Assembly: GCA_944324705.1 (NCBI GenBank)
Contig: CALUXI010000004.1
Span: 1-64,000 of the forward strand
From: an uncultured Acholeplasmatales bacterium
Lineage (GTDB): Bacteria > Bacillota_I > Bacilli_A > Acholeplasmatales > Anaeroplasmataceae
Direction of reading: 5' to 3'
DNA length: 64,000 nucleotides
This document shows positions 325 to 13,991 of this stretch, piece by piece (position 1 is the stretch's first letter; each line of letters begins with the position of its first letter). The notes beneath the pieces were generated by a model. It searched no databases and was not told the origin of the DNA. It was given only the letters and a program-made list of their open reading frames with translations. A program made the position numbers and the translations under genes.

Positions 325-717
325 TTATTTTATAAAAACTTTATCTGCTGCAGAAAAATTCATATTTTTCATTTCTTCAATAGTTTTCCAAGCTTTTTCT
401 ACATGTTCAGTTAATTCTAGATTGCCTTTTATTAGCTTACATCTATAAGCATACATAGTAATACTAAAGCCTTTATAAGGTGGCATATCAGGGTAGTTAT
501 AATTAGAGACTCCTATATATTCTAGAGGAACAATATCTGACTTTAATTCTTCTTTAATGTCTCTTACGATTGTTTCTTCATGAGTTTCGTGAGCTTCAAC
601 TTTGCCACCTGGAAATTCCCAATATTCTTCAAGTGCTCGACCTGGACCTCTTTTACAACAAAATATTTTGCCTTCTTCATTTTCAATTAAAGCACAAACA
701 ACTTCGATATGTTTAAT
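325..717 (-). pseudogene. Duplicate NUDIX hydrolase gene whose start codon is ATT
   Basis: This is a near copy, of the same 393-nt length, of the NUDIX gene at 2450-2842. I read the frame through by hand and found no internal stop and no frameshift. The codon aligned with the ATG of the intact copy is ATT (715-717), and an in-frame TAA lies immediately upstream, so no ATG, GTG or TTG can replace it. The NUDIX box is kept apart from one Glu to Asp change (VRDIKEEL). The ribosome-binding region (AGAGGTG) is also kept. Just upstream the sequence still encodes VNK-stop, the last codons of the helicase that precedes the intact copy. The duplicated unit therefore once included a helicase 3' end. 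It is either a freshly silenced copy or one translated weakly from ATT. Confidence 0.75.
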
Positions 718-748
718 TTATGTACACCTCTACTTATTAACAAAGCAA

Positions 749-1972
749 TTATTTTAATAGCCAGTCTACTATATTAACGATATTTATACCTTCATAGTTT
801 CCTAAACCTATATAATCATCAGTAATAACAAACTTTGGATAATTGTCCTTAATTATTTTTAATGGTTCCATTTCTCTATTAAAAGTAGATTCATCTAGCA
901 TGGTTAAAGTAACCTGATAATATTCAAATATACCATCCTTAAAAGCTACAAAATCTACTTCTTTATCATTAATCTTACCTACATTAACCTTATAACCTCT
1001 TCTAAGTAATTCTAAGTATACAACGTTCTCTAGTGAAAAACCAACATCATATTTCTGCTTAGGAAGAATATACTTTCTAAAACCTAAATCTACCATATAA
1101 TATTTATAATTTGTTTTTAAAAGACTCTTACCGCTTACATTTATTCTTTCTGCTTTGTAATATAGATATGATTCTTCTAAAGCGTCAACATAAGCACCAA
1201 CGGTTACATGGGAAGTTTTTCTCCCATTAGAAGATAAATAGTTAGCTATATTATTCATAGAAACTGGACTGCCAATAATGCTAGATAAATATTTTGAAAT
1301 ATCCTTTAATAATTGAATATCTGTAATTTTAAGATCATTAGAAGCTAACTCTTTTCTTTTTTGTCTTTCCTCAATATCTTTAACAAAAACAGTATTATAG
1401 ATACCTTCAATATAACCAAGATCATCACCTAAATTACTCTTTCTAATTAAAGCAGCATAAGGTAGTCCACCATTGATAAGATAGTCAGAAAAAAGTTTAT
1501 TATTATCAAAATCACCCATAAATTCTTTATATTCTTTAAAAGATAAAGGCAATAAATTAATTTCGATATATCTTCCCGATAACAATGTTCCTAATTCACT
1601 AGATAATAAATAAGCATTTGAACCCGTTATATATATATCAATATTTTCTTTAACATACAAACTATCAATTACTTTTTCAAAATACTTAACTTGTTGAATT
1701 TCATCTAAGAAAAAATAGGTATATCTTCCACTAACAATTTTAGATTTTAAATATTCATATAGCTTTTTATAATCTAATAATTCTTCATTTTCTAATTCCT
1801 CAAAATTTAAACTAACAATTTGATTATCATTAATTCCAGCCTCTAACAACTTATCTTGAAATTGTTTTAATAATGTTGATTTGCCACATCGTCTAATACC
1901 CGTAATAACCTTGATTAATTCTAATTCTTTTAATTGCCATAATCTATCAATGTATTCTTTTCTAATAATCAT
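749..1972 (-). CDS. AAA_14/DUF4143 family ATPase (first copy)
   Basis: The protein has the typical layout of this family. An N-terminal P-loop ATPase carries a Walker A GIRRCGKST at about residues 25-33, a Walker B-like FFLDEIQQ and the sensor stretch ITGSNAYLLSSELGTLLSGR. A winged-helix-like middle follows (around NNIANYLSSNGRK). The C-terminal DUF4143 half contains KEVDFVAF and YYQVT, like a PD-(D/E)XK nuclease fold. I start it at the ATG of MIIRKEY because GGTGG lies about 8 nt upstream; an in-frame ATG 15 nt further up lies inside that ribosome-binding site. The family is abundant in gut Bacillota, but its cellular role is not established. A second member lies at 5807-6994. A palindrome sits in the promoter region. 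Confidence 0.85.
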   Translation of the reverse strand: MIIRKEYIDRLWQLKELELIKVITGIRRCGKSTLLKQFQDKLLEAGINDNQIVSLNFEELENEELLDYKKLYEYLKSKIVSGRYTYFFLDEIQQVKYFEKVIDSLYVKENIDIYITGSNAYLLSSELGTLLSGRYIEINLLPLSFKEYKEFMGDFDNNKLFSDYLINGGLPYAALIRKSNLGDDLGYIEGIYNTVFVKDIEERQKRKELASNDLKITDIQLLKDISKYLSSIIGSPVSMNNIANYLSSNGRKTSHVTVGAYVDALEESYLYYKAERINVSGKSLLKTNYKYYMVDLGFRKYILPKQKYDVGFSLENVVYLELLRRGYKVNVGKINDKEVDFVAFKDGIFEYYQVTLTMLDESTFNREMEPLKIIKDNYPKFVITDDYIGLGNYEGINIVNIVDWLLK

Positions 1973-2022
1973 AAATATCACCACCATCCAGTGTAATTTT
2001 AAAACAAAGGTTTGCTTTTTTC

Positions 2023-2854: not shown

Positions 2855-5764
2855 CTATTTATTTACAATATAATCAAAAATATCTTCTCTAACTGGAGTT
2901 TCTAATAAAAACTCAAAATTTACAGCATGATCACCTGATGCCATAGTTGTTTCCTTAGGCTCAGAAATAGGACTTATCTCACCTAAGAAATAGAATTCTT
3001 TGAAATTTTCTTCATCCTTTTTATTTTTACGAACAAATAATAGCATTTTTGTTTCATTAATTTTAGCTGCAGTAATATTTTTCACATCTGGTGAACTTAA
3101 ATAACGTTTATTCTTAGATATCCATGATAAGACATTCCTGGATATAAAATAGTCATTATATTTGATAGACTCAGCAATATCATCATCCTTATGATAATTA
3201 ACAAAAATCGGTAATGTATTAGTTTTAGCATCATATTTATAGCCACCAATATTAGTTGCTACCGCATTTTTATCCCAGTCTAATAATTTACATACATCAT
3301 CATAACTATACTTTTGATAAAGGGAGAACGCTAAATCCTCATAATTATTATCAAAATTTTTAGAGTATGTATGTAATCCAAAGTCAATGATTTCATCAAT
3401 TTCTTTTCTAAAATTTTCACTCTGTAACATATTTTTAAAAGTTGGATCTATTGTAAGCTTATTGCCATTGCATGAGGCAAACTTCACTTTATTATATTGT
3501 GGAGCTTCGCTACCAACTAAGTAGTTTCCAGTAAACTGATTAATTAAATTATCAATTGTATTTTGATTAAGCGCTATACGAGAATATTTATTAGACATAT
3601 TTTCTCTAAATGACATTAGATCAACTTCATTATTATCTATCAATTGTAGTAATAATTCTAGTTCAAAAGGGCGTTTACACTTTATATATTTTTGGGACAG
3701 TAATTTTAAATATAATTCTTCGAGGTAATTATACTTAATATGATAATCAGCTTCATATTTGGTTAAAAATTCATGATAGCTATCAAATTTATCAAAAAAT
3801 TTAAAGACTTCTATTGAACCATATTTTTCATAATCAAAATAGTTAGGAATTCTACCAATTTTATACTTTAATTCTAGATAAGAATCTTTTAAGATTTTGG
3901 TTGTATTTAAACGAGCCTTATCAATTTTGTCAAAGATATTTTGTTCTACTACTCTTTCAAAGTTAATGGTTGATTCACCAGGAATTGTATTGTTACCCTC
4001 ACTTATAAAACGTCTTATATTATCTTTGTTATAACTGCGATCTCCTGATAGGGCAATTGGAATTAAAAAGTTATTATCATAATTGCCTATAAAATCTAGA
4101 ACTACTAAGTATTCCTTATCAATATATTTTCTCAGTCCTCTACCTAATTGTTGAACAAAAATTATGGCTGATTCAGTTGGCCTTAGCATAATTATTTGAT
4201 TAATACACCTAATATCTATACCTTCATTAAATATATCTCTGGTAAAGATATAATCTAAATAATTTTCTTTATCATCTGACTCAAGCAATTGAATTGCTTT
4301 TTCTCTTTCTTGTTGTGAATTTTCGCCTGATAAAGCCGTTGTTTTAAAACCATATTTATTAAATTCTTGTGATAAAACTTTAGCTTCTTCAAGCCTACTT
4401 ACAAAGACTAATCCTTTTACTTTAGAACCACAAAATCCATAATATTGGGCTTGATTAATAACATGCTCAACTCGATCTTTTGACACCAATTTATTAAATT
4501 CAGTTTTATCGTCTACCATTTTGCCATCAGCCATAAAATCTGATATGGCATAATAATGGAATGGACAAATTAAATCTTCTTTCATTGCATCTTGTAATCT
4601 AATATTACAAGCAATATTATAATTAAATAATTGATAGATATCATAGCCATCTGTACGTTCCGGTGTTGCTGTCATACCTAAAACAAATTTAGGCTTAAAA
4701 TAATTAAAAACCTTCAATGTACCTGAGGCTCCCAGATGGTGAACTTCGTCAAAAACAATATAATCAAATTCAGTCGGTTTAAAATAATTTAAAATGTTAT
4801 CTTTAGATAAAGTTTGAACCATAGCAAAAATGTAATCTGCATCCTCTTTATGTCCACCACCTAAAATACAAGCATTTATGTCATTACCAATAACTCTCTT
4901 ATACGTTTCAAGAGCATCTTTAGCAATTTGTTCCCTATGAACTACAAACAAAAATTTTTTTGGTTTAAATGCCTTAACATCTAATGCTGATAGGATAGTC
5001 TTACCAGTACCTGTACTAGAAATGCAAAGTGCTCTTGTTTGATTTGCTTCTCTCAGAAGTTTTAAATTTTCTAGAGCCTCCTCTTGCATTTTATTAGGTC
5101 TTATGGTCATTGGTACTATTTCAATATTTTGTTGTTGACGCTTCTTTTGGTTATAGATTTTTTTATATTCATTTATAAAATCATCATCGACTTTAATTGA
5201 TTGAGCTAATAAACTTTTAAATTCATCAATTACCTTAATAGCATACGAACCATCGTTTGTGGAAGTTAATTTAACATTCCATTCCTTATTAACACTTAAA
5301 GCATCAGCAGTTAAATTACTACTACCAACTATAATTTTAATATCTTGGTTAGCTTTAAATATATATCCTTTTGAATGCATTTTAACAATATCTTCTGTAA
5401 CTATTCTTAAATCAATATTAGGAAATTTATCTATGATATTTTTTAAAGCCTGAGGATCCGTAAAATTTTGATATTGAGAAACAATAATTTGTCCTTTAAT
5501 GTTTTTTTCTTTTAGTTCATTAAAGGTATTAAATAATTGTTGATAACCACCCATTGTTAAAAAGGCGACACAAAATAAAAATTCATCACATGATTTTAAC
5601 TCTTTTATAATATCAGTTAATACTTTTTCTCCATCATCAGGATTATTAACTAATAATCTTGGCACGTAATCAATATTTGCTAAATATTTAGAATCTATTA
5701 ATCCTTTTTCAATACCGTCAAATATTTTTTTTGTTCTTTCATCTAAAATATCGATATTTTCCAT
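2855..5764 (-). CDS. PLD-like nuclease / SF2 helicase / DUF3427 protein
   Basis: This is a large three-part protein. The N-terminal quarter is a phospholipase D-like nuclease domain with an HKD-type motif (HSKGYIF, then GSSNLTADAL about 20 residues later). A superfamily 2 helicase core follows, with motif I STGTGKT, motif II DEVHH, motif III TATPERTDG and motif VI QQLGRGLRK. The C-terminal third matches the DUF3427 region of such helicases, including the ending with the SPISEPKETTM stretch. I start at MENIDIL because GAGGG lies 7 nt upstream; an earlier ATG eight codons up lacks a site. It is followed by a co-transcribed NUDIX gene. Family members occur in mobile or defence neighbourhoods, and a role in DNA processing or defence is inferred. 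No methyltransferase is nearby. Confidence 0.88.
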   Translation of the reverse strand: MENIDILDERTKKIFDGIEKGLIDSKYLANIDYVPRLLVNNPDDGEKVLTDIIKELKSCDEFLFCVAFLTMGGYQQLFNTFNELKEKNIKGQIIVSQYQNFTDPQALKNIIDKFPNIDLRIVTEDIVKMHSKGYIFKANQDIKIIVGSSNLTADALSVNKEWNVKLTSTNDGSYAIKVIDEFKSLLAQSIKVDDDFINEYKKIYNQKKRQQQNIEIVPMTIRPNKMQEEALENLKLLREANQTRALCISSTGTGKTILSALDVKAFKPKKFLFVVHREQIAKDALETYKRVIGNDINACILGGGHKEDADYIFAMVQTLSKDNILNYFKPTEFDYIVFDEVHHLGASGTLKVFNYFKPKFVLGMTATPERTDGYDIYQLFNYNIACNIRLQDAMKEDLICPFHYYAISDFMADGKMVDDKTEFNKLVSKDRVEHVINQAQYYGFCGSKVKGLVFVSRLEEAKVLSQEFNKYGFKTTALSGENSQQEREKAIQLLESDDKENYLDYIFTRDIFNEGIDIRCINQIIMLRPTESAIIFVQQLGRGLRKYIDKEYLVVLDFIGNYDNNFLIPIALSGDRSYNKDNIRRFISEGNNTIPGESTINFERVVEQNIFDKIDKARLNTTKILKDSYLELKYKIGRIPNYFDYEKYGSIEVFKFFDKFDSYHEFLTKYEADYHIKYNYLEELYLKLLSQKYIKCKRPFELELLLQLIDNNEVDLMSFRENMSNKYSRIALNQNTIDNLINQFTGNYLVGSEAPQYNKVKFASCNGNKLTIDPTFKNMLQSENFRKEIDEIIDFGLHTYSKNFDNNYEDLAFSLYQKYSYDDVCKLLDWDKNAVATNIGGYKYDAKTNTLPIFVNYHKDDDIAESIKYNDYFISRNVLSWISKNKRYLSSPDVKNITAAKINETKMLLFVRKNKKDEENFKEFYFLGEISPISEPKETTMASGDHAVNFEFLLETPVREDIFDYIVNK

Positions 5765-5806
5765 AAGTATACCCTCGTGTAATATCATTTATTGCATCGT
5801 ATTTTT

Positions 5807-6994
5807 TTAATCTAATTCATCTAAAGTTAGAAATTTATCTAATTTAATATGTCTAACTGTACTAGTTGAAAAATCAATATCATCATTGGTTATAATAATC
5901 TTTTGATTAGAATTATCCAAATTATTAAATGCACCAAATTCTCTCTGATAAGCCTTTTCATCTACAACACTATATGCTACCTGAATTAGATAAGTTTTAT
6001 TATTTTTTTGTGCTATAAAATCTATTTCTTTTCCATCATTATCATATAACTTTACAGTGTATCCCATGTACAATAATTCATTATATATAATATTTTCTAA
6101 ATTGTGATCAATATCAAATCTATTATTACTAATATGCAATGAATTAAAACATACATCAGAATCATAAATTTTACCATAATATGCTAATTCTCTTTTTGCC
6201 TTTAGACTATATTGCGGTATTTCATCAATAATATAAGCTTCTTTTAGATATTCTATATATTTAATTACTGTATTTAATGAAATATTTTCACATTGTGTTT
6301 TAATATTTTTATGTATTGTTCTAGCTGAATAAACTCTTGAATTATTCATTAAAATATAACTTACTATTTTTTTGAATGGCACAGTTTTTTTAATTTTGTA
6401 TCTTTTTATCAAATCATTAAACACTATAGTGTTTTCTAAGTCTTCTAGATATAATTTAGTAGATTCAATATCGTTAATATTAAAACGAGCTGGAAAACCA
6501 CCCCATATTAAATAATCAGAAACTGTAGTCGTTTTACCAATTTCATCACAATATTCAAGTATTTCTTTATAAACAAAAGGTCTAATTCTAAATGAAACAA
6601 ATCGACCACTTAATAGTGTCAATAGTTCACTAGATAATAGTTTTGAATTACTTCCCGTAATAAATATTGAATTATTATTATCTAGACGTAAATCTTTAAC
6701 AGCTATTTGCCAATTATCTACCTCTTGAATTTCATCTAAAAATATATAGCATTTACCATTTTTTTTATTTTTTTCAATATATTTAACCAAATCAATCTCA
6801 TTTGAAGCTTTCATCAGATCATTTGTTTTTTCAAAATTCAAGTATATAATATTGTCTGTTTTTTCCTTCAATTCTTCCATTATTGATTGAAGAATTACTG
6901 ATTTACCGCATCTTCTTATTCCAACAATAACTTTAATTAAATCACTGTCGTAAAAATTTCTTATTTGACTAATGTACTTTTCTCGTTTTATCAT
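5807..6994 (-). CDS. AAA_14/DUF4143 family ATPase (second copy)
   Basis: It has the same architecture as the gene at 749-1972. Walker A is GIRRCGKSV near residue 25, Walker B CYIFLDEIQEV, and the conserved ITGSNSKLLSSELLTLLSGR. A winged-helix-like segment (YSARTIHKNIKTQ) and a C-terminal nuclease-like DUF4143 part (KEIDFIAQ, YLIQVAY) follow. The ATG of MIIKREKY-type start at 6994 is chosen, since TTGGAG sits 9 nt upstream and the earlier in-frame TTG falls inside that site. The overall similarity to copy 1 is architectural rather than close, so this is not a recent tandem duplication. Three copies of a 12-nt motif lie upstream. The function of the family is unknown. Confidence 0.85.
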   Translation of the reverse strand: MIKREKYISQIRNFYDSDLIKVIVGIRRCGKSVILQSIMEELKEKTDNIIYLNFEKTNDLMKASNEIDLVKYIEKNKKNGKCYIFLDEIQEVDNWQIAVKDLRLDNNNSIFITGSNSKLLSSELLTLLSGRFVSFRIRPFVYKEILEYCDEIGKTTTVSDYLIWGGFPARFNINDIESTKLYLEDLENTIVFNDLIKRYKIKKTVPFKKIVSYILMNNSRVYSARTIHKNIKTQCENISLNTVIKYIEYLKEAYIIDEIPQYSLKAKRELAYYGKIYDSDVCFNSLHISNNRFDIDHNLENIIYNELLYMGYTVKLYDNDGKEIDFIAQKNNKTYLIQVAYSVVDEKAYQREFGAFNNLDNSNQKIIITNDDIDFSTSTVRHIKLDKFLTLDELD

Positions 6995-7052
6995 AATGAA
7001 ACACTCCAATCATAAATAGTATAATATATATGAATATATTCATATATATTAT

Positions 7053-7131
7053 ACTGAACACTTTTTTATAATTCAAGAAAAATGTTAATTCACACTGAAC
7101 ACTTTTGTGTTTCAAAGTGAAAGTGTTCAGT
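7053..7131. promoter_or_regulatory. Triple ACTGAACACTTT motif upstream of AAA_14 ATPase 2
   Basis: ACTGAACACTTT occurs at 7053-7064 and 7094-7105, and inverted at 7120-7131; the last two form a palindrome. Read on the minus strand, the copy nearest the gene runs into GTGTTCAGTATAAT. The motif therefore abuts a TATAAT-like -10 box, as an operator would. The same motif returns as a palindrome at 11202-11241. Confidence 0.6.
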
Positions 7132-7184
7132 ATATATTCAAAATAAACTAAAATCTAATCAAAACATCTCGATGCCTCATCTCT

Positions 7185-8873
7185 TTATACTAAATTCTTA
7201 TTAAACCTATTTAAAGCACCCTCAATAACGTTTAATTGTATATCTAAGGCCTGTAAAATAGCCTTTTCTTTTTTGGTATAAGGTGTTTTCTTACTATATT
7301 TACCATCTTTGTCTCTTGTAGCTTGAATACAACTAAGTTCATTTAATATTTCAGGAGTTGTATAGGTTTTTCTATCCTTACAATTGTTTCTTAAATTTTT
7401 AGTTCTAACAAATACTTCATTTCTTAATATTAATCCTACAAAAAGACATAAATTTTTAGATTTTAAATGTTTAACATCATGACATCTTACACAATCAAAT
7501 TGTTCATACGTTTTCATCATCATAATTAATTTTTCTGTATAGTCTCTATTATGATAAACTTTATATGCTTCAGCTGGTGATGATATATTACTAGCTATAA
7601 TAACAAAATAGCCATAGTATTTTGAATCAGTATCAACTTTAGTTTTATTAATAGCACATGATTCTAATTTATTATTTATGATTTCTAAATCAAGATATTT
7701 TTCATACTTTTTAATTTCACTAGCTGTTAAAGTTTTACCTAATAATTTCTTTACTTCCATAAACATTTTAGTTACTTTTAAATGAAGATTTTTAGTGGCT
7801 TCATTTTTAGCCTCTGAACTAAAGTAAACATGATAATATAAATTTTTATTAATCGATTCAAAAGGTTTATATGCTGTCCAAGCACCATATAAATCTAATT
7901 CTGGTATATAATTTTCTACACTATTAACCTTATCAATCATTCTATCTAATACGGTTTTTAGTTGATTATTATTCTTAGCCATCATAATAAAGCCATAATC
8001 CAATTCTAGTAAAGATTTCATTAAACCAGAAGAAAAATATCCCCTATCTAAAACAAAATTTATAGATTTTGGTTTACCATTTTTCAATATCTTAACTATC
8101 TTTTTACCCTCATTTAAGTCATGAATAGTTCCATTATATTCTTTATAATAAACAGGCGTATAATTTTGTTGTTCAGTAACTAAAGAAAAAGCAAATTGAT
8201 TTTCAAAAGCTTTATTTTTACTATAAGCTATATCAACAAGTTCAATTATATTAGCTTCTGTTGAAACACTAGAACCATCTATAGATAAAACTAGATCTTT
8301 ATCTTTACAAGTATGTTCAATCCAGTCATTTAAAAAACTATCTATATCAGCTTCTTCAATACTACCTAACATATTTTCTAAAGCTGTATCACTTTCTATT
8401 TTATTACCAAGTATTAAATGATTTCTAGCAAAATGGGGATAGCTAACAATTGATGAATTATTAGTAAGTATAAACTTAGTAGCTAGATTAATAATTGAAT
8501 TACTTCTTAAATTATCATCTTCATCGAAGTTATTTTTTAATATTGGAAGTAATCCAATATTACTAGCTAGCTTATGTAAAACAGCAGTAACACCATAAGT
8601 AATCCCATCAGAAAAATTAAGTTTATTAGACAAAACATCACTGTTAGATTTTTCTTCATAAACTTCTGAAAAATACTTTTTAAAATTATCGTTTATATAC
8701 ATAGTATTAGTGTTTGGAATTTGAATACCAATGGTTACCCGAACATCAGAATTATTTTGTCTTTTCTTATCATATCTCTTTTCAACAACGTGATAAACAT
8801 AGGTTTTATTACAATTTTTAGCTAAAATGGAACCCTTAGGAATTGGAACAATAAAATTTTTATCATAAGGCAT
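7185..8873 (-). CDS. IS4-superfamily (IS1634-like) DDE transposase
   Basis: This is a 562-residue transposase with the catalytic pattern of the IS4/IS1634 group: first Asp in LSIDGSSVS, second Asp in VLDRGYFS, and a perfect YREK signature (Y-2-R-3-E-6-K in YHNRDYTEKLIMMMK) carrying the Glu. The length is right for IS1634 relatives and the frame is intact, so it is probably active or recently active. AAAGGGG lies upstream of the ATG. I could not define terminal inverted repeats or a target duplication by eye; the element must lie within about 7140-9330. It separates the AAA_14 ATPase from the ATPase-TOPRIM pair, which share an operator-like motif. Confidence 0.9.
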   Translation of the reverse strand: MPYDKNFIVPIPKGSILAKNCNKTYVYHVVEKRYDKKRQNNSDVRVTIGIQIPNTNTMYINDNFKKYFSEVYEEKSNSDVLSNKLNFSDGITYGVTAVLHKLASNIGLLPILKNNFDEDDNLRSNSIINLATKFILTNNSSIVSYPHFARNHLILGNKIESDTALENMLGSIEEADIDSFLNDWIEHTCKDKDLVLSIDGSSVSTEANIIELVDIAYSKNKAFENQFAFSLVTEQQNYTPVYYKEYNGTIHDLNEGKKIVKILKNGKPKSINFVLDRGYFSSGLMKSLLELDYGFIMMAKNNNQLKTVLDRMIDKVNSVENYIPELDLYGAWTAYKPFESINKNLYYHVYFSSEAKNEATKNLHLKVTKMFMEVKKLLGKTLTASEIKKYEKYLDLEIINNKLESCAINKTKVDTDSKYYGYFVIIASNISSPAEAYKVYHNRDYTEKLIMMMKTYEQFDCVRCHDVKHLKSKNLCLFVGLILRNEVFVRTKNLRNNCKDRKTYTTPEILNELSCIQATRDKDGKYSKKTPYTKKEKAILQALDIQLNVIEGALNRFNKNLV

Positions 8874-8890
8874 AATACAGCACCCCTTTC

Positions 8891-8910
8891 TTTAGTATAA
8901 TTATACTAAA
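8891..8910. promoter_or_regulatory. Perfect 20-bp palindrome at the transposase promoter
   Basis: TTTAGTATAA is followed directly by its complement TTATACTAAA, 18 bp upstream of the transposase start. On the minus strand it contains AGTATAAT, usable as a -10 box, with another AGTATA just upstream. It may serve as promoter and repressor site for the transposase. It could also simply be AT-rich chance structure. Confidence 0.4.
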
Positions 8911-8967
8911 AATATACTAAAAAATCAACAAAAAAATCGCGTAATTACATAGAAAAAACGTCGATGA

Positions 8968-9249
8968 TTACATATCATTAGTCTTAATTTCAATTAACAT
9001 AATATAAATATATATTAAATTTAAATCTAAATTTTCATTAAACTTTTGCCACTTATTGGTACTAAATATTCTAACCTTCATCTTATCTTTAATGAAAATT
9101 AGTAATATATAAAAGTAACATAAACTAATAATGAAAATTATATATTTTTCTAATAGTTTAAATTTAGCTAAAAACTTATTGGAATTTGTATTAAAAAAAC
9201 AATTATCTCGCTTTGTGTCATCAAAGAAATTAATGCGTGAATACGCCAT
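8968..9249 (-). CDS. Hypothetical small protein, doubtful
   Basis: This is a 93-residue open frame between the transposase and the TOPRIM gene. It has a central hydrophobic stretch (about residues 35-54, rich in Ile, Leu, Phe and Tyr) that could be a membrane segment. I recognise no family. There is no convincing ribosome-binding site before the ATG, and the composition is what very AT-rich DNA gives by chance. It may be the degraded flank of the insertion sequence. Confidence 0.2.
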   Translation of the reverse strand: MAYSRINFFDDTKRDNCFFNTNSNKFLAKFKLLEKYIIFIISLCYFYILLIFIKDKMKVRIFSTNKWQKFNENLDLNLIYIYIMLIEIKTNDM

Positions 9250-9331
9250 TTTATTTGGGGTGATTGTTAGAGTATCTATATGATAATTGGAATTATAGAC
9301 ACTAAAAACATATTCAGTCTAATAATAATTT

Positions 9332-9838
9332 TTACTTTTTAATATCATTAATCTGATTTTTAATATATTTAGAAAATGGTAATTCTTTAGTTTTTCTTGT
9401 CCATAATTTATTAATTTCAAAATTAACTGTTGCCAATTTATTTAAAATATTATTACAATGAATAAAATTGGTTTTGAATTCATCCAAGCCTTGGGTTTGA
9501 AACAATTGATGAATATTTTTAATTTGACAAGTAAATAATATTTCATCTTCAAAATTAGCAACTGATTGTATGTGAAAGATATTATTAAAACCATGTTTTT
9601 TTAGTACTTCTACATTCTCTATTAGTTTTGAATCATCTTTGACATCTATGTCATAAACTAAGATAATCGTTGCATGAGGACGAATTGATAATATTCGTTG
9701 TTTTGAAAGTTTATTTTGAATAACATTAAAAACATCAACTCTACCTGAAATTAAATAATTACAAGGTGGAGTTTTTAAGGCATTTATCAACTTCTCCTCA
9801 CATTTTCCCTCTACAAAATATTGAAAGTACTTAGAGAT
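9332..9838 (-). CDS. TOPRIM-like nuclease partner of an AAA ATPase
   Basis: The first canonical start (TTG, 9790) would cut off the key motif. Upstream codons in the same frame encode YFQYFVEGKCEEKL, whose hhhEGxxE pattern is the opening of TOPRIM domains. The later acidic VYDIDVKDD matches the second TOPRIM motif. The frame opens just after a TGA, and AGGAG at the end of the ATPase gene is followed only by ATA, ATT and ATC codons. I therefore place the start at ATC (9838) or ATT (9841), overlapping the ATPase stop. The unit is ATPase then TOPRIM protein, as in AbiL, PARIS and two-gene OLD-like defence modules. The later FEDEILFTC and LDEFKTNFI stretches fit a recurrent small family partnered with such ATPases. 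Defence function is inferred. Confidence 0.65.
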   Translation of the reverse strand: MSKYFQYFVEGKCEEKLINALKTPPCNYLISGRVDVFNVIQNKLSKQRILSIRPHATIILVYDIDVKDDSKLIENVEVLKKHGFNNIFHIQSVANFEDEILFTCQIKNIHQLFQTQGLDEFKTNFIHCNNILNKLATVNFEINKLWTRKTKELPFSKYIKNQINDIKK

Positions 9839-9840
9839 AA

Positions 9841-10971
9841 TTATTCTCCTAACTCAAAAATTTTATTCAAATCAGGTGCAGTAGCCAACATATCATTGTC
9901 CAAGATGCTTTTAGCAGAAACATTATTTCTATTTTCAATTAAACTTGCACAATAGCTTTTAATAATAGTCTTATTTTCTACTTTTTCTTTTTTCATAAAA
10001 TTAAAGGCATGAAATGGATACTTAATTTCTAACACATTTGAATTATGAGTGGTAATAAATAACTGCTCATTAGGACCTAATAATGATACCATTGTGTTGA
10101 TTAAAGCAACTTCTACATCTGAATTTACATATGAAAATTGTTCATCTACTATATATATACCATTATTATGATTTTTTATAAAAAAAATAATATTAGCAAT
10201 ATTGATTCCATATTTTGTTCCACTAGATAAAAAATTAATATTAGCAATTTTGTAACCACTCTGAATAATAATTTTACCTGTATTTTCATGTTCAATAACA
10301 TAGGCATCTTCACTATCTAAGCTTGGTATTACTCTAATGATAGCTGGATCTAGAGTTTTTAAAACGTCATTTAGAATTTTTAAATACTCTTGTTTTTCAG
10401 CATTATTTCTAGTTTCACAAAATCTAACGATATCAAAGCCTTCTTCAGTTGCTGGTAAGGCTGTATACCAACCAATATTTAAACTGTTTTTGGTTAAACA
10501 ATTAACATAATTTTCAAAAGTATATTCTTGACTATCTAAATCCTTAGCACAAGATTCATAGGAGTCTCCATTTTCTAAATCAATTTTACCAATAGCTACT
10601 AAAATATTATTATCCTTATTGTCAATTTTTATTTTTACCCGTAATAATTTAGGTGTTTGATTAGCAGTATCTTCTACTAAATCTAACTCAATATATGAAT
10701 CGTCAAATAGTTTATTAGAGATGCTATCTATAAGTGTTCTTTCTTTATTTTTCAAAAATATTAAGCAGTGCCAAATACATTTCATAAGTGATGTCTTACC
10801 GGTTGCATTAGCACCTATGAAAATATTAACCTTCTTATATCTAAATGATGTAATTGAACTTAAAAATTCATTATCAATAGTAGACTTGCGTAATTTCATT
10901 GGGTAAGAAAAATTGATTTCAAAATCACTAAAAGCTAGTATATTTTTTAATTTTAAATTCATTAAAATCAT
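9841..10971 (-). CDS. AAA_15/AAA_21-type ATPase, OLD/AbiL/PARIS-like
   Basis: This 376-residue ABC-like (SMC/OLD-type) ATPase has Walker A GANATGKTSL near residue 55, an ABC-signature-like LSSGTKYGI, Walker B GIYIVDEQFS and the switch His in ITTHNSNVL. The start ATG (10971) has AAGGAG 7 nt upstream. The stop TAA touches the next gene, a TOPRIM-like protein. ATPases of this group paired with TOPRIM or RloB-type proteins act in abortive infection or virus sensing (AbiL, PARIS, OLD). By analogy the ATPase would sense or gate the partner. A palindromic promoter-like element identical in motif to that of the AAA_14 ATPase lies about 230 bp upstream. Confidence 0.8.
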   Translation of the reverse strand: MILMNLKLKNILAFSDFEINFSYPMKLRKSTIDNEFLSSITSFRYKKVNIFIGANATGKTSLMKCIWHCLIFLKNKERTLIDSISNKLFDDSYIELDLVEDTANQTPKLLRVKIKIDNKDNNILVAIGKIDLENGDSYESCAKDLDSQEYTFENYVNCLTKNSLNIGWYTALPATEEGFDIVRFCETRNNAEKQEYLKILNDVLKTLDPAIIRVIPSLDSEDAYVIEHENTGKIIIQSGYKIANINFLSSGTKYGINIANIIFFIKNHNNGIYIVDEQFSYVNSDVEVALINTMVSLLGPNEQLFITTHNSNVLEIKYPFHAFNFMKKEKVENKTIIKSYCASLIENRNNVSAKSILDNDMLATAPDLNKIFELGE

Positions 10972-11201
10972 AATATCACTCCTTAATATGCTAAGTTTAT
11001 TATATCTCTTTTAAGTCAACTATCCAATATTTTTGAATAGTTAAATGCTATTTATATAATGATTAGTACATGACACTACCATTTATTAGTATAAAAACAT
11101 AACTAATAATTTGATTCCTGTTTCATTGGAAACACCTAATATACTTCAAATTGAGTTATTTTATAAAATATTAATTTTTTTCCTTATGTATATAAAAATT
11201 A

Positions 11202-11241
11202 TACTGAACACTTTTGCTATTTTTTAAAAAAGTGTTCAGTA
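11202..11241. promoter_or_regulatory. Second ACTGAACACTTT palindrome, with -10 box
   Basis: TACTGAACACTTTT (11202-11215) and its exact complement (11228-11241) flank a 12-nt loop. On the minus strand it ends AAAGTGTTCAGTATAAT, identical over 17 nt to the promoter-proximal copy of AAA_14 ATPase 2. It points towards the ATPase-TOPRIM pair. The remaining 10972-11201 shows no coding remnant that I can recognise, so a long leader or a lost small gene are both possible. Confidence 0.6.
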
Positions 11242-11347: not shown

Positions 11348-12142
11348 TTAATTATTTTTAATCTTTAAACTAAACTCGTCTATTACTTCTAGCATTTCTT
11401 TAGTTAATTTAGATCTCACATTTTTCACTAAGTTTAAATCAATATTCTTGTAATAGGCCTCAGCAACTGCACAACTAATAGCAGATGTTGTATCACAATC
11501 ACCACCAATACTGATAGTTGTTCTTAAAGTGTCTTCAAAGCTAGTTGATATTAAAAAACAGTAGATTGCTTCCGGAACTGTTACCTCGCATATTTCTGCA
11601 CCGTGAACATATGTTTTTCTTAAGGTTTCATAGTCTAAATCCTTTATTTTAGGATATTCACTAATCGCATAGTTTTTAAGTTCCTCTTTAGAAGAGTTAT
11701 GAAGAGCCATATATACTAATTTAGCTGTTACATAAGCTCCCTTTAGACCTTCTTTGTGATTATGTGTAACTTCGGTAATAGTTTTAGTTAATGCATATAG
11801 TTCTTCTTCATCTTTTGCAAACCAGCCAACTGCACTTATTCGCATAGCTGAGCCATTTCCACATGAGTTATATGGTTTAGGATTTGCCAAATTCATCCAA
11901 GTAATAAAGCTTGTACCATAACCAGCATCAGGATATTTTCTAGCCCATTTTTGTAAGAAACTGGCAGCTTCATTTAAATCACTTTTATCTTTAGCATGTA
12001 ATAACCAATCCGTTACCGCAATTGTTAAAACTGTATCATCCGTATAACAAGATTCATTTGTTATTAACGTAAATTTCTTTGTTTTAATGTTATTAAATTC
12101 AAATCTTGAACCAACCACATCACCTATAATTGCCCCTAACAA
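11348..12142 (-). CDS. ADP-ribosylglycohydrolase (DraG family)
   Basis: The 264-residue protein fits the DraG/ADP-ribosylhydrolase fold. The start MLGAIIGDVVGSRFEF is the family's glycine- and Asp-containing opening. CYTDDTVLTIA supplies the metal-binding Asp pair, and GGDCDTTSAI near the C-terminus supplies the second conserved Asp site. It would remove ADP-ribose from protein, nucleic acid or small molecules. The start is TTG (12140-12142) with GGAGG 7 nt upstream. It is the last gene of a three-gene unit with a macrodomain protein and a NERD-HRDC protein. Together these suggest handling of ADP-ribosylated targets. No ADP-ribosyltransferase is seen. Confidence 0.9.
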   Translation of the reverse strand: MLGAIIGDVVGSRFEFNNIKTKKFTLITNESCYTDDTVLTIAVTDWLLHAKDKSDLNEAASFLQKWARKYPDAGYGTSFITWMNLANPKPYNSCGNGSAMRISAVGWFAKDEEELYALTKTITEVTHNHKEGLKGAYVTAKLVYMALHNSSKEELKNYAISEYPKIKDLDYETLRKTYVHGAEICEVTVPEAIYCFLISTSFEDTLRTTISIGGDCDTTSAISCAVAEAYYKNIDLNLVKNVRSKLTKEMLEVIDEFSLKIKNN

Positions 12143-12153
12143 AATATAACCTC

Positions 12154-12600
12154 CTACAGATTAAGTTTATATATTTTTAAGGTGTAACCAGCTAGTTTTT
12201 TAATAAAAGTCTCTTTGACTATTTCCCAGTTACCACTAGCTATACCACAGCCATATTTATAAGGTATTGCTACACTATCTAAATTATGACTTTTTAAATA
12301 AGCTACTACTTTATCTAGACATTTACCTAAAGCTTCATAATCCGTTCTAAAGTCATTTCTTTGACTAAAGCAATTAGCTATTACATAGTTCTTGGTTTTA
12401 GCAAAACAAACAGCTCCTAATTCTTTAGGTTTAAAGCTTTGATATTCTTTTTCTACATTGGGATATTTAGTAGCTATACTAAGTGCTATACCTCCACCCA
12501 TAACACCAGCTAAATTAACTTGATGACATAAGACATCACAATCATTTTGAAGGGCGTCACCAACAAGTTCAACAACTTTACAATCTATCACATTATTCAC
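12154..12600 (-). CDS. Macrodomain protein (ADP-ribose binding or hydrolysis)
   Basis: This 148-residue single macrodomain has LCHQVNLAGVMGGGIALSIA, giving the ADP-ribose-binding loop with its Gly run, and YKYGCGIASGNW, the second phosphate loop. The type resembles DarG-like and ALC1-like (GVMGGGIA) macrodomains that bind or remove ADP-ribose. It starts at GTG (12598-12600), overlapping the stop of the preceding gene in GTGA, so translational coupling is likely. Only 11 nt separate it from the DraG-type gene. An antitoxin role is imaginable, as in DarTG, but no DarT toxin is present in the window. Confidence 0.88.
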   Translation of the reverse strand: MNNVIDCKVVELVGDALQNDCDVLCHQVNLAGVMGGGIALSIATKYPNVEKEYQSFKPKELGAVCFAKTKNYVIANCFSQRNDFRTDYEALGKCLDKVVAYLKSHNLDSVAIPYKYGCGIASGNWEIVKETFIKKLAGYTLKIYKLNL

Positions 12601-13901
12601 CGATTCATTTTAACTATTTTTAAAATTTCGTTGCCATACAATTCAACTTTTTTATTACCGATACCATTAATTTTAAGTAACTCTTCTTTGGTACTTGGGC
12701 ATTTTTCAACAATATCTATTAATTCAGCATTGGTAAAAATATAGTATTGGGGAATATTTTCTTCGTTAGCTTTAGCATATCTAAAGGCTTTTAGTTTTTG
12801 ATAGAGGGGAGATGCTTCTAATTTACTCTTTTTTTCAAACTCTATTTTGGAATGTTTAATAATAATATCTAAAATATCTTGGCCATATAGTTCATATTGT
12901 TTGGCGTTTAATATCTTACTCTTAGACAACTCATTTAAATCTAATGGCCTTTTTAAGATAAGTTTCTCCAGTTGTTCATTATTGAAAATATAGTAAGGTT
13001 TATAATTTAATTCTTCTGATTTGGTTTTACGATACTTTCTTAGCTCCTCATATAAATCATCATTTTGAGGAACTTCTACAACAACCTCTTCTCTTACTAT
13101 TTCTTTAGTATTAGGCGCTGTTTCAATTGTTTTTTCTTCAAATTTAGTCGCCATTAGTTTTAATTTTAATTTACTTACATAATCGATATCACGTTCAACA
13201 ATATGATCAGATATATAATCGATGATATTCATCATTTGTTTCTTCTTGATTTCAAAATCACTTAAACTATTATAATAAACTAATAGCTTATTTGCTAATT
13301 GATCGGTTTTAATTACAATCTCTTGTATTTCTCTTGGCGCATAAGCTTTCTTTATTATAGCCTTACTATTTGAACAACAAATTAAAGATAAGATTGGAAA
13401 ATTCTTAATAAGTTTATTTGATGTAAGTAATTGTTCTAATAAATTACAATGTTTTTTATTTTGTTCAACTGGAGAATCCATACCTTCTTTTTTGTATACA
13501 TTGCCTTTAGCATCAATAAAAGTTCTAATAAAATTACCTTCTTTATCAATATCAATATTCCCATTTAGTTTCTTAGCTTCAATTACACAAATAAATCTTT
13601 GAGTAACAATTATGAAATCATATTGTAAGGTAATCTCATTATACTTTAAGCAAACATCATGGAAGACAAATCCGTATAAAGAATAGATGTTTTCTAATTC
13701 ATAAGCAACCTTAGATTCACCAGCTAATCCAATATTTACTTTATTTAATTCACGTTCCACAACTTCCTTTTGATCATCACCTACTTTTAACAGTAAATCT
13801 TCTAATTGTTCTTTTTGGCGACAATTATCCTTTTCAAAGGGCTTTACAAAATATAGTTTTTTTGTCTCTTCTGAACCAAAAATCTTATCTATTATTCCCA
13901 T
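12597..13901 (-). CDS. NERD-domain protein with C-terminal HRDC-like domains
   Basis: The N-terminal half carries a nuclease-related NERD domain: LAGESKVAYELENIY, then YDFIIVTQRFICVIEAKKL with the conserved Asp and the E-x-K that define the nuclease-like core. The C-terminal half holds two HRDC-like helical modules, around LYEELRKYRKTKSEELN and LYQKLKAFRYAKANEEN, each followed by an I-N/IL helix-turn segment of the kind that binds nucleic acid in RecQ helicases. The start ATG at 13899-13901 has GGAGG 8 nt upstream; 13 further in-frame codons upstream are not needed. It leads the operon with the macrodomain and DraG genes, so the three may deal with modified nucleic acid. Confidence 0.8.
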   Translation of the reverse strand: MGIIDKIFGSEETKKLYFVKPFEKDNCRQKEQLEDLLLKVGDDQKEVVERELNKVNIGLAGESKVAYELENIYSLYGFVFHDVCLKYNEITLQYDFIIVTQRFICVIEAKKLNGNIDIDKEGNFIRTFIDAKGNVYKKEGMDSPVEQNKKHCNLLEQLLTSNKLIKNFPILSLICCSNSKAIIKKAYAPREIQEIVIKTDQLANKLLVYYNSLSDFEIKKKQMMNIIDYISDHIVERDIDYVSKLKLKLMATKFEEKTIETAPNTKEIVREEVVVEVPQNDDLYEELRKYRKTKSEELNYKPYYIFNNEQLEKLILKRPLDLNELSKSKILNAKQYELYGQDILDIIIKHSKIEFEKKSKLEASPLYQKLKAFRYAKANEENIPQYYIFTNAELIDIVEKCPSTKEELLKINGIGNKKVELYGNEILKIVKMNR

Positions 13902-13991
13902 ATGATATTCCTCCAAAATATTATTAATTTTTACATACATTCTTTTATTTAGTATAGCAAATTTTAGTTATCTTTTAAATAATTAAAAGGC

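Follow-up and report, generated by a model that had tools for sequence, protein, structure and literature searches.

Paired inverted repeats at the promoters of AAA_14-DUF4143 genes: candidate private operators of a defence-type ATPase family

Introduction

PDC-S01, an ATPase fused to a domain of the PD-(D/E)XK superfamily (PMC12988326), is, as reported, the fourth commonest defence system across prokaryotes, although its function is unproven. Its AAA_14/DUF4143 architecture marks a very common group of suspected anti-phage genes, and the Thermus member TT_P0211 is listed, at a value of 6.6, with the genes that responded when plasmid DNA was present (PMC4406477). Here, we analyse a 64,000-nucleotide stretch of an uncultured Acholeplasmatales bacterium (GenBank assembly GCA_944324705.1, contig CALUXI010000004.1, positions 1 to 64,000; hereafter the window), in which a repeated motif lies at the promoter of an AAA_14-DUF4143 gene and recurs, as an orphan copy, before an ATPase-TOPRIM operon. 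With a probability of about 0.68, we propose from the sequence comparisons below that such repeats are private paired operators of AAA_14-DUF4143 genes, to which the AAA_14 proteins would bind to repress their own expression, and that the orphan copy would be a relic.

A repressor of a defence promoter that acts through repeats has been described in RptR, whose site in its native promoter is conserved together with its gene (PMC12255303). The presumed AAA_14 system resembles RptR in placing a repressor on repeats within its own defence promoter, in the case of RptR that of a type I restriction-modification/DarTG2 island. RptR, however, is a small, separate protein devoted to regulation that acts at three direct repeats and a palindrome core of 6 bp, whereas the presumed regulator here is the defence ATPase itself, with subclade-private sites at a pitch of about 40 bp. 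Orc1/Cdc6 and DnaA-like initiators, in turn, combine an AAA+ ATPase with a winged helix and have repeated or inverted sites near their own genes. In the open-access literature searched, no promoter sites or regulation were found for the AAA_14/DUF4143 family, nor was a private operator pair of constant, approximately four-turn pitch for a whole class of defence-type ATPases.

Two tandem dyads overlap the AAA_14 promoter

The features of the window on which the analysis centres are the following:

5807 to 6994, minus strand: AAA_14-DUF4143 ATPase gene (PADLOC PDC-S01), 395 amino acids from an MIKRE start, identified with Pfam, PADLOC and an AlphaFold2 model
7048 to 7076, minus strand: AAA_14 promoter, TTGAAT-N17-TATAAT, inside and abutting the proximal dyad
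7053 to 7090: proximal dyad, 38 bp, with a strong promoter-side half-site and a degenerate second one (sequence and alignment of orthologous upstream regions)
7094 to 7131: distal dyad, 38 bp, at a pitch of 41 bp to the proximal one; both 12-bp arms are perfect
7018 to 7055: perfect A+T palindrome, 38 bp, overlapping the -10 box of the AAA_14 gene
11202 to 11241: orphan dyad; its 14-bp arms are perfect, its centre spans 12 bp, and the minus strand carries a -10-like TATAAT

The motif ACTGAACACTTT has five copies in the whole 1,640,904-base assembly, at 7053(+), 7094(+), 7120(-), 11203(+) and 11229(-), and its reversed control pattern gave zero matches in the motif scan. These are the copies that an earlier note on this DNA had described, three before the AAA_14 gene and the others in an orphan palindrome with 14-bp arms. 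The true unit is a 38-bp dyad, ACTGAACA-N22-TGTTCAGT, which is exact at 7094-7131 and 11203-11240 and degenerate at 7053-7090, where the 7053 copy of the motif forms the left arm (ACTGAACA...TGTTAATT). The AAA_14 promoter carries two such dyads in tandem, 7053-7090 and 7094-7131, with a pitch of 41 bp. On the minus strand, the AAA_14 site and the orphan site both read AAAGTGTTCAGTATAAT, which agrees with the common sequence into which the minus-strand copies had been said to run. The A+T palindrome at 7018-7055 is absent in that form from the AAA_14 orthologues.

Conservation, geometry and covariation in relatives

Four of 55 genomes of the taxonomic family contain the exact 38-bp dyad: that of the window (G000), G031, G036 and G037. 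In G036 and G037, it lies directly before an orthologous AAA_14 gene, 92-94% identical to that of the window. In G037, this gene and its dyads constitute a lone insertion of ~1.7 kb between two convergent genes, and G031 and G033 are without the insertion at that place. No linked regulator therefore travels with the gene, and the site belongs to the AAA_14 gene itself.

Alignment of the regions upstream of the AAA_14 genes of the window's clade (proteins 60-100% identical) revealed two tandem dyads, with a single dyad unit only in G043 and in one G036 copy. The pitch between half-sites of the same orientation was measured in six genes of the clade; it is 41 bp in five of them and 40 bp in the other. 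In the clade orthologues, the promoter-side arm leads into the -10 box (AGTATAAT or AGTATGAT). The centre of the promoter-side dyad holds a -35-like hexamer. Hexamers equivalent to the promoter boxes of the window gene were read by eye in the orthologues; the G047 promoter, for instance, reads TTGACT-N17-TATGAT in the upstream alignment.

The layout is retained in orthologues of 60-92% identity, between which the arms of the dyads change jointly (ACTGAACACTTTT, ACTGAAAACTTTT, ACTGAAAGATTTT, ATTGGACAGTTTG). In an alignment of 14 dyads, four of them orphans, we counted 14 double-change cells. Shuffles gave 4.9 +/- 1.6 such cells, none of 500 reaching this count, and slid controls had no more than 3. 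Nearly all of the arm changes are double, and one is of the G-U type. A second AAA_14 clade, whose proteins are at least 52% alike in the comparisons listed, has dyads at six promoters that are centred on ACAAA-N17-TTTGT with covarying outer bases; here, 24 double-change cells and no one-sided changes were counted, with 97.9% paired. In a clade ~38% identical to that of the window, the half-site differs (TATCGAACAAA) and the pitch is still 40-41 bp.

The genome scan for AAA_14 genes with a single protein as query yielded six loci only, and the exact motif had no match in viral contigs. A general ACTGAA-N26-TTCAGT pattern was rejected as a finder, its matches being mostly chance occurrences in coding DNA.

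Genes similar to those for DNA-binding proteins of the AlbA_2/Schlafen type lie directly upstream of several AAA_14 genes of the clade and near the G045 orphan dyad (L110, L112, L113, L148), and the latter dyad adjoins a portal-protein-like gene. At the place of the G037 insertion, G000 has another AAA-type ATPase gene (L154, G000:C12), with the Walker motif GARQIGKT, which is preceded by four direct repeats of TTGAAAACTGACAAA at an exact 33-bp pitch (~6762-6875 of the locus). Whether these GARQIGKT ATPases are a sister family with a fixed spacing of its own is a question that this locus raises.

A 40-bp pitch across the AAA_14-DUF4143 family

Taking the best inverted repeat within 150 bp upstream of each gene, we found that, in the order, it reached p <= 0.01 for 25 of 60 AAA_14 genes, compared with 9 of 95 control genes (Fisher 5e-6). 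The corresponding fractions for viral contigs were 14/43 AAA_14 genes and 9/71 controls (p = 0.011). A scan for direct repeats had an unplanned outcome, in that 15 of its 18 significant cases were spaced by 40 or 41 bp. The spectrum of lags from 12 to 89 bp showed 40 bp as the sole clear peak in the order sample (56 genes, z = 7.0) and peaks at 40 and 39 bp in the viral-contig sample (41 genes, z = 4.8 and 3.8, respectively); none was present in 256 control promoters. The five strongest lag-40 matches among the controls turned out to be AAA_14 genes that had escaped detection, or to have promoter DNA in common with such a gene, and their removal left 251 controls.

A third sample, of 75 non-redundant promoters from the rest of the phylum, was drawn to test the 40-bp prediction, with lags of 39-41 bp and a threshold of 7.5 set in advance. 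It again peaked at 40 bp (z = 6.4), and 24 of the 75 promoters were positive, compared with 1.6% on average and 5.3% at most for other lag triples; a pair or a significant palindrome was present in 52/75. On pooling the samples, repeats 39-41 bp apart were detected in 52 of 172 AAA_14 promoters and 2 of 251 controls (Fisher 1.5e-20), the best pitch being 39 bp in 10 cases, 40 bp in 32, 41 bp in 10 and 42 bp in 3. The repeat scoring was simple, the controls came from the same contigs as the AAA_14 genes, and the genomes are mostly fragmented assemblies.

The repeat units vary by subclade and are often palindromic, e.g., TTTTACGGTTACAACCGTAAAA (L257), AGTTTTGCGGTTACTAACCGCAAAA (L297), TATCGAACAAA (L055) and TTTGGAGTGTACTCCAA (L210). 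Since the sequences differ between subclades, the sites look like private operators. They are located at promoters, overlapping the -35 and -10 boxes, and the second copy ends 10-74 bp 5' of the start codon. The sites go with the AAA_14 subclade across genera, and paralogues within one genome have unrelated sites. The fixed geometry and this family-wide pattern had been overlooked in the earlier note. Its view of the motif as operator-like and tied to the AAA_14 gene is supported.

It is highly improbable that the inverted repeats are RNA hairpins (attenuators or terminators) or chance palindromes of an A+T-rich genome, a reading that is largely excluded even though their predicted folds are strong (z -3.8 to -6.6). 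The right arm abuts the -10 box and is therefore not transcribed from the AAA_14 promoter, and a 40-bp pitch is not a property of RNA folds and is nearly absent from the controls, with two cases. On the position of the arm, the pitch and the predominance of double changes over the single G-U-type one, the hairpin reading was rejected.

The AAA_14 protein as the candidate repressor

The product of the 5807-6994 gene is a clear member of PDC-S01 by its Pfam and PADLOC profiles and shares its architecture of an ATPase plus a PD-(D/E)XK domain. It matches Pfam AAA_14 (5.9e-33, 114.1 bits, cut-off 27), Pfam DUF4143 (2.2e-12, 47.4 bits, cut-off 28.1) and the PDC-S01 profile (7.8e-118, 391.9 bits). 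Its AlphaFold2 model, with a predicted local distance difference test score (pLDDT) of 90.9, shows an AAA+ domain together with a winged helix and, at the C terminus, a PD-(D/E)XK-like domain. The winged helix that the earlier note had attributed to this protein is thus present in the predicted model, at residues ~204-278 (pLDDT about 91), with a recognition helix at ~240-252. Among 41 aligned AAA_14 sequences, G30-K31, D87-E88, S115-N116, R131 and E323-x-D325 are invariant. The alignment and the predicted model together hold Walker A and B, the sensor, the winged helix and the PD-(D/E)XK-like fold.

The simplest reading, and from the sequence evidence the most likely one, is autorepression by AAA_14 through sites that it would bind itself. 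What the sequences show directly is the sites with their dyad symmetry, arms that covary, a pitch that stays constant, an overlap with promoter-like hexamers and a near absence from control genes. As in an autoregulated pair, the dyad overlaps the promoter of the gene, and the site is conserved with the gene while its arms covary. The motif would then be the half-site of the AAA_14-DUF4143 gene's operator, and the two dyads, 41 bp apart, would cover the promoter. Most likely, AAA_14 would bind the dyads through its winged helix, as dimers or in a higher-order oligomer, along a single DNA face. Occupancy of the proximal dyad would cover the promoter, which is the geometry of a repressor site; the bound protein would block RNA polymerase and keep the expression of its own and the cotranscribed genes low until some release signal. 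The design would be family-wide, with AAA_14-DUF4143 (PDC-S01) promoters carrying subclade-private sites, often as pairs 40 +/- 1 bp apart, i.e., about four helical turns.

Several points weigh against this reading. Approximately 70% of the AAA_14 promoters are without a detectable 40-bp pair, and in ~30% of the third sample both such a pair and a significant palindrome are missing. Genes of common descent do not count as independent cases, and redundancy was filtered solely by upstream DNA. AAA_14 binding, repression, the release signal and the relic status of the orphan dyad are steps that we infer, and an AAA_14 coding remnant beside that dyad was not detectable within 240 bp. The dyads may also serve activation instead of repression, and another regulator could be the binder.

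Dyads by themselves do not name the protein that binds them, and a different host DNA-binding protein might recognise them and control the AAA_14 genes. We consider this improbable. The unlike private sites of paralogues in one genome make a single host factor unlikely, and the sites track the AAA_14 subclade across genera. Moreover, the lone G037 insertion brings no other gene, and AAA_14 has a predicted winged helix of its own.

A similarly slim chance is given to the repeats being substrate or target sites of AAA_14, recognised by its PD-(D/E)XK-like domain or serving an iteron-like assembly as for AAA+ initiators. AAA_14 does resemble Orc1/Cdc6 in having an AAA+ domain with a predicted winged helix and repeated sites, and the best Foldseek match of its model is 2qby, an archaeal Orc1/Cdc6-origin DNA complex, at E 1.5e-7 with a TM-score of only 0.32 and a root-mean-square deviation of 11.6. 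The tandem arrangement at constant pitch and the invariant E-x-D...Q motif in the aligned C-terminal domains would also fit such a role. Nevertheless, the alignment lacks the lysine expected in a classical ExK motif, and the location at promoters, overlapping the -35 and -10 boxes, is that of repressor sites. This overlap, the low TM-score and the extra PD-(D/E)XK-like domain set AAA_14 apart from Orc1/Cdc6 and DnaA-like initiators.

For autorepression by AAA_14, a site that can be read from the sequence would be the first molecular handle on the AAA_14/DUF4143 family. It predicts the DNA bound by each AAA_14 protein, the spacing, and an expression held down until a trigger arrives, which could help to explain the silent candidates in defence screens. 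A bolder extension, which we regard as rather unlikely, is that PDC-S01 ATPases, as a large class of AAA+ winged-helix proteins, assemble on private pairs of invariant four-turn spacing and that occupancy, beyond plain housekeeping repression, is the state of a defence sensor, so that interference with the complex as a phage or plasmid enters would switch the system on.

The orphan dyad and the ATPase-TOPRIM operon

The orphan dyad ends 231 bp before the ATG of an ATPase gene, in a region with the following features:

10999 to 11027, minus strand: separate promoter belonging to the ATPase-TOPRIM operon, TTGGAT-N17-TATAAT, immediately ahead of the ribosome-binding site
9841 to 10971, minus strand: ATPase of the AAA_21/AAA_15 type, probable defence operon (PADLOC best match AbiLi, 2.4e-16)
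9332 to 9853, minus strand: TOPRIM-like partner of the ATPase, with an EGxxE motif and a DxD conserved in homologues

The start of the TOPRIM-like gene probably lies upstream of 9790, in a frame that stays open as far as 9853 and so far extends into the ATPase gene; Pfam, TOPRIM models included, gave no match to the 9332-9853 product. The operon (9332-10971) is similar to ATPase-TOPRIM operons of the AbiL/PARIS/Septu type and, on present evidence, stands outside the AAA_14 operator system.

The earlier note had suggested common control, perhaps by the winged-helix part of the AAA_14 protein. In such a small defence regulon, AAA_14 would repress its own gene and, via the 11202-11241 dyad, the ATPase-TOPRIM operon as well. 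The perfect 14-bp arms, the same 38-bp span as at the AAA_14 gene, the -10-like TATAAT pointing toward the operon and the cognate protein 4 kb away are consistent with this idea, and a terminator-like site between the orphan dyad and the operon was not found. We nevertheless judge it unlikely. The operon has its own promoter (11027-10999), 170 bp closer, and the dyad precedes none of nine homologous ATPase genes, five of them at 54-57% identity and most with the same partner. A regulon spanning the ATPase-TOPRIM operons was rejected on these homologues. Most of the nine have a different short inverted repeat, of the ATTCAA/TTGAAT type, between the -10 box and the start codon. In addition, orphan dyads persist in genomes that lack the cognate gene. 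The orphan dyad has hexamers resembling a promoter, which may nonetheless contribute to transcription of the operon.

In the ATPase-TOPRIM homologues (L158-L166), the repeat reads ATTCAA-N7-TTGAAT or ATTAGTTCA-N7-TGAACTAAT and is located between the -10 box and the ribosome-binding site; the operon of the window is apparently without a repeat of this type at that spot.

The alternative raised in the earlier note, that the orphan copy is a relic, proved the better supported by sequence comparison. Orphan dyads of the window's clade occur in G031, G045 and G050, where no AAA_14 gene of that clade is present. In G050, a perfect dyad is followed by a decayed AAA_14 start that matches the start of the G047 gene in 23 of 24 bases (none of 200 shuffles scored as well), and relic promoters with intact arms therefore exist. 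Nothing convincing was found in a search for an AAA_14 remnant after the G031 orphan dyad. An insertion shared by the orphan sites of the window and G031, sought via the neighbouring ADP-ribosylglycohydrolase gene, was not shown: the coding ends of the two glycohydrolase genes match, and homology ceases just past the stop codon. The best reading, most likely although unproven, is that the dyad at 11202-11241 is a promoter left behind when an AAA_14 gene was lost, rather than a functional switch for the ATPase-TOPRIM operon, and such dyads would offer a way to spot places of AAA_14 gene loss.

Beside the orphan dyad, genes for an ADP-ribosylglycohydrolase, a macro-domain protein and a NERD/HRDC protein stand in a row (11348-13940). 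The region past the glycohydrolase gene is wholly different between close relatives and is a defence island in G031.

Neighbouring genes

Further features of the window surround the AAA_14 gene:

7185 to 8873, minus strand: IS1634-family transposase (NCBIfam NF033559, 2.3e-44, 152 bits, cut-off 100)
2855 to 5788, minus strand: DUF3427 helicase gene of the PLD type, which follows the AAA_14 gene after 18 bp
749 to 1987, minus strand: second AAA_14-DUF4143 gene (Pfam and PADLOC profiles), with a different private palindrome
2023 to 2054: palindrome before the second AAA_14 gene, AACAGTTTTGTT-N8-AACAAAACTGTT, with 10-bp arms

The transposase gene is the insertion sequence that had been placed between the AAA_14 unit and the ATPase-TOPRIM unit. 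The DUF3427 helicase gene is probably cotranscribed with the AAA_14 gene. The 10-bp arms of the AACAGTTTTGTT-N8-AACAAAACTGTT palindrome had no other match at the same spacing in the 55 genomes of the family. A NUDIX gene, of the family listed as PDC-S07 in PADLOC, is duplicated in the window (340-718 and 2450-2842), with ~95% identity over 415 bp and one copy after each of the two AAA_14 genes.

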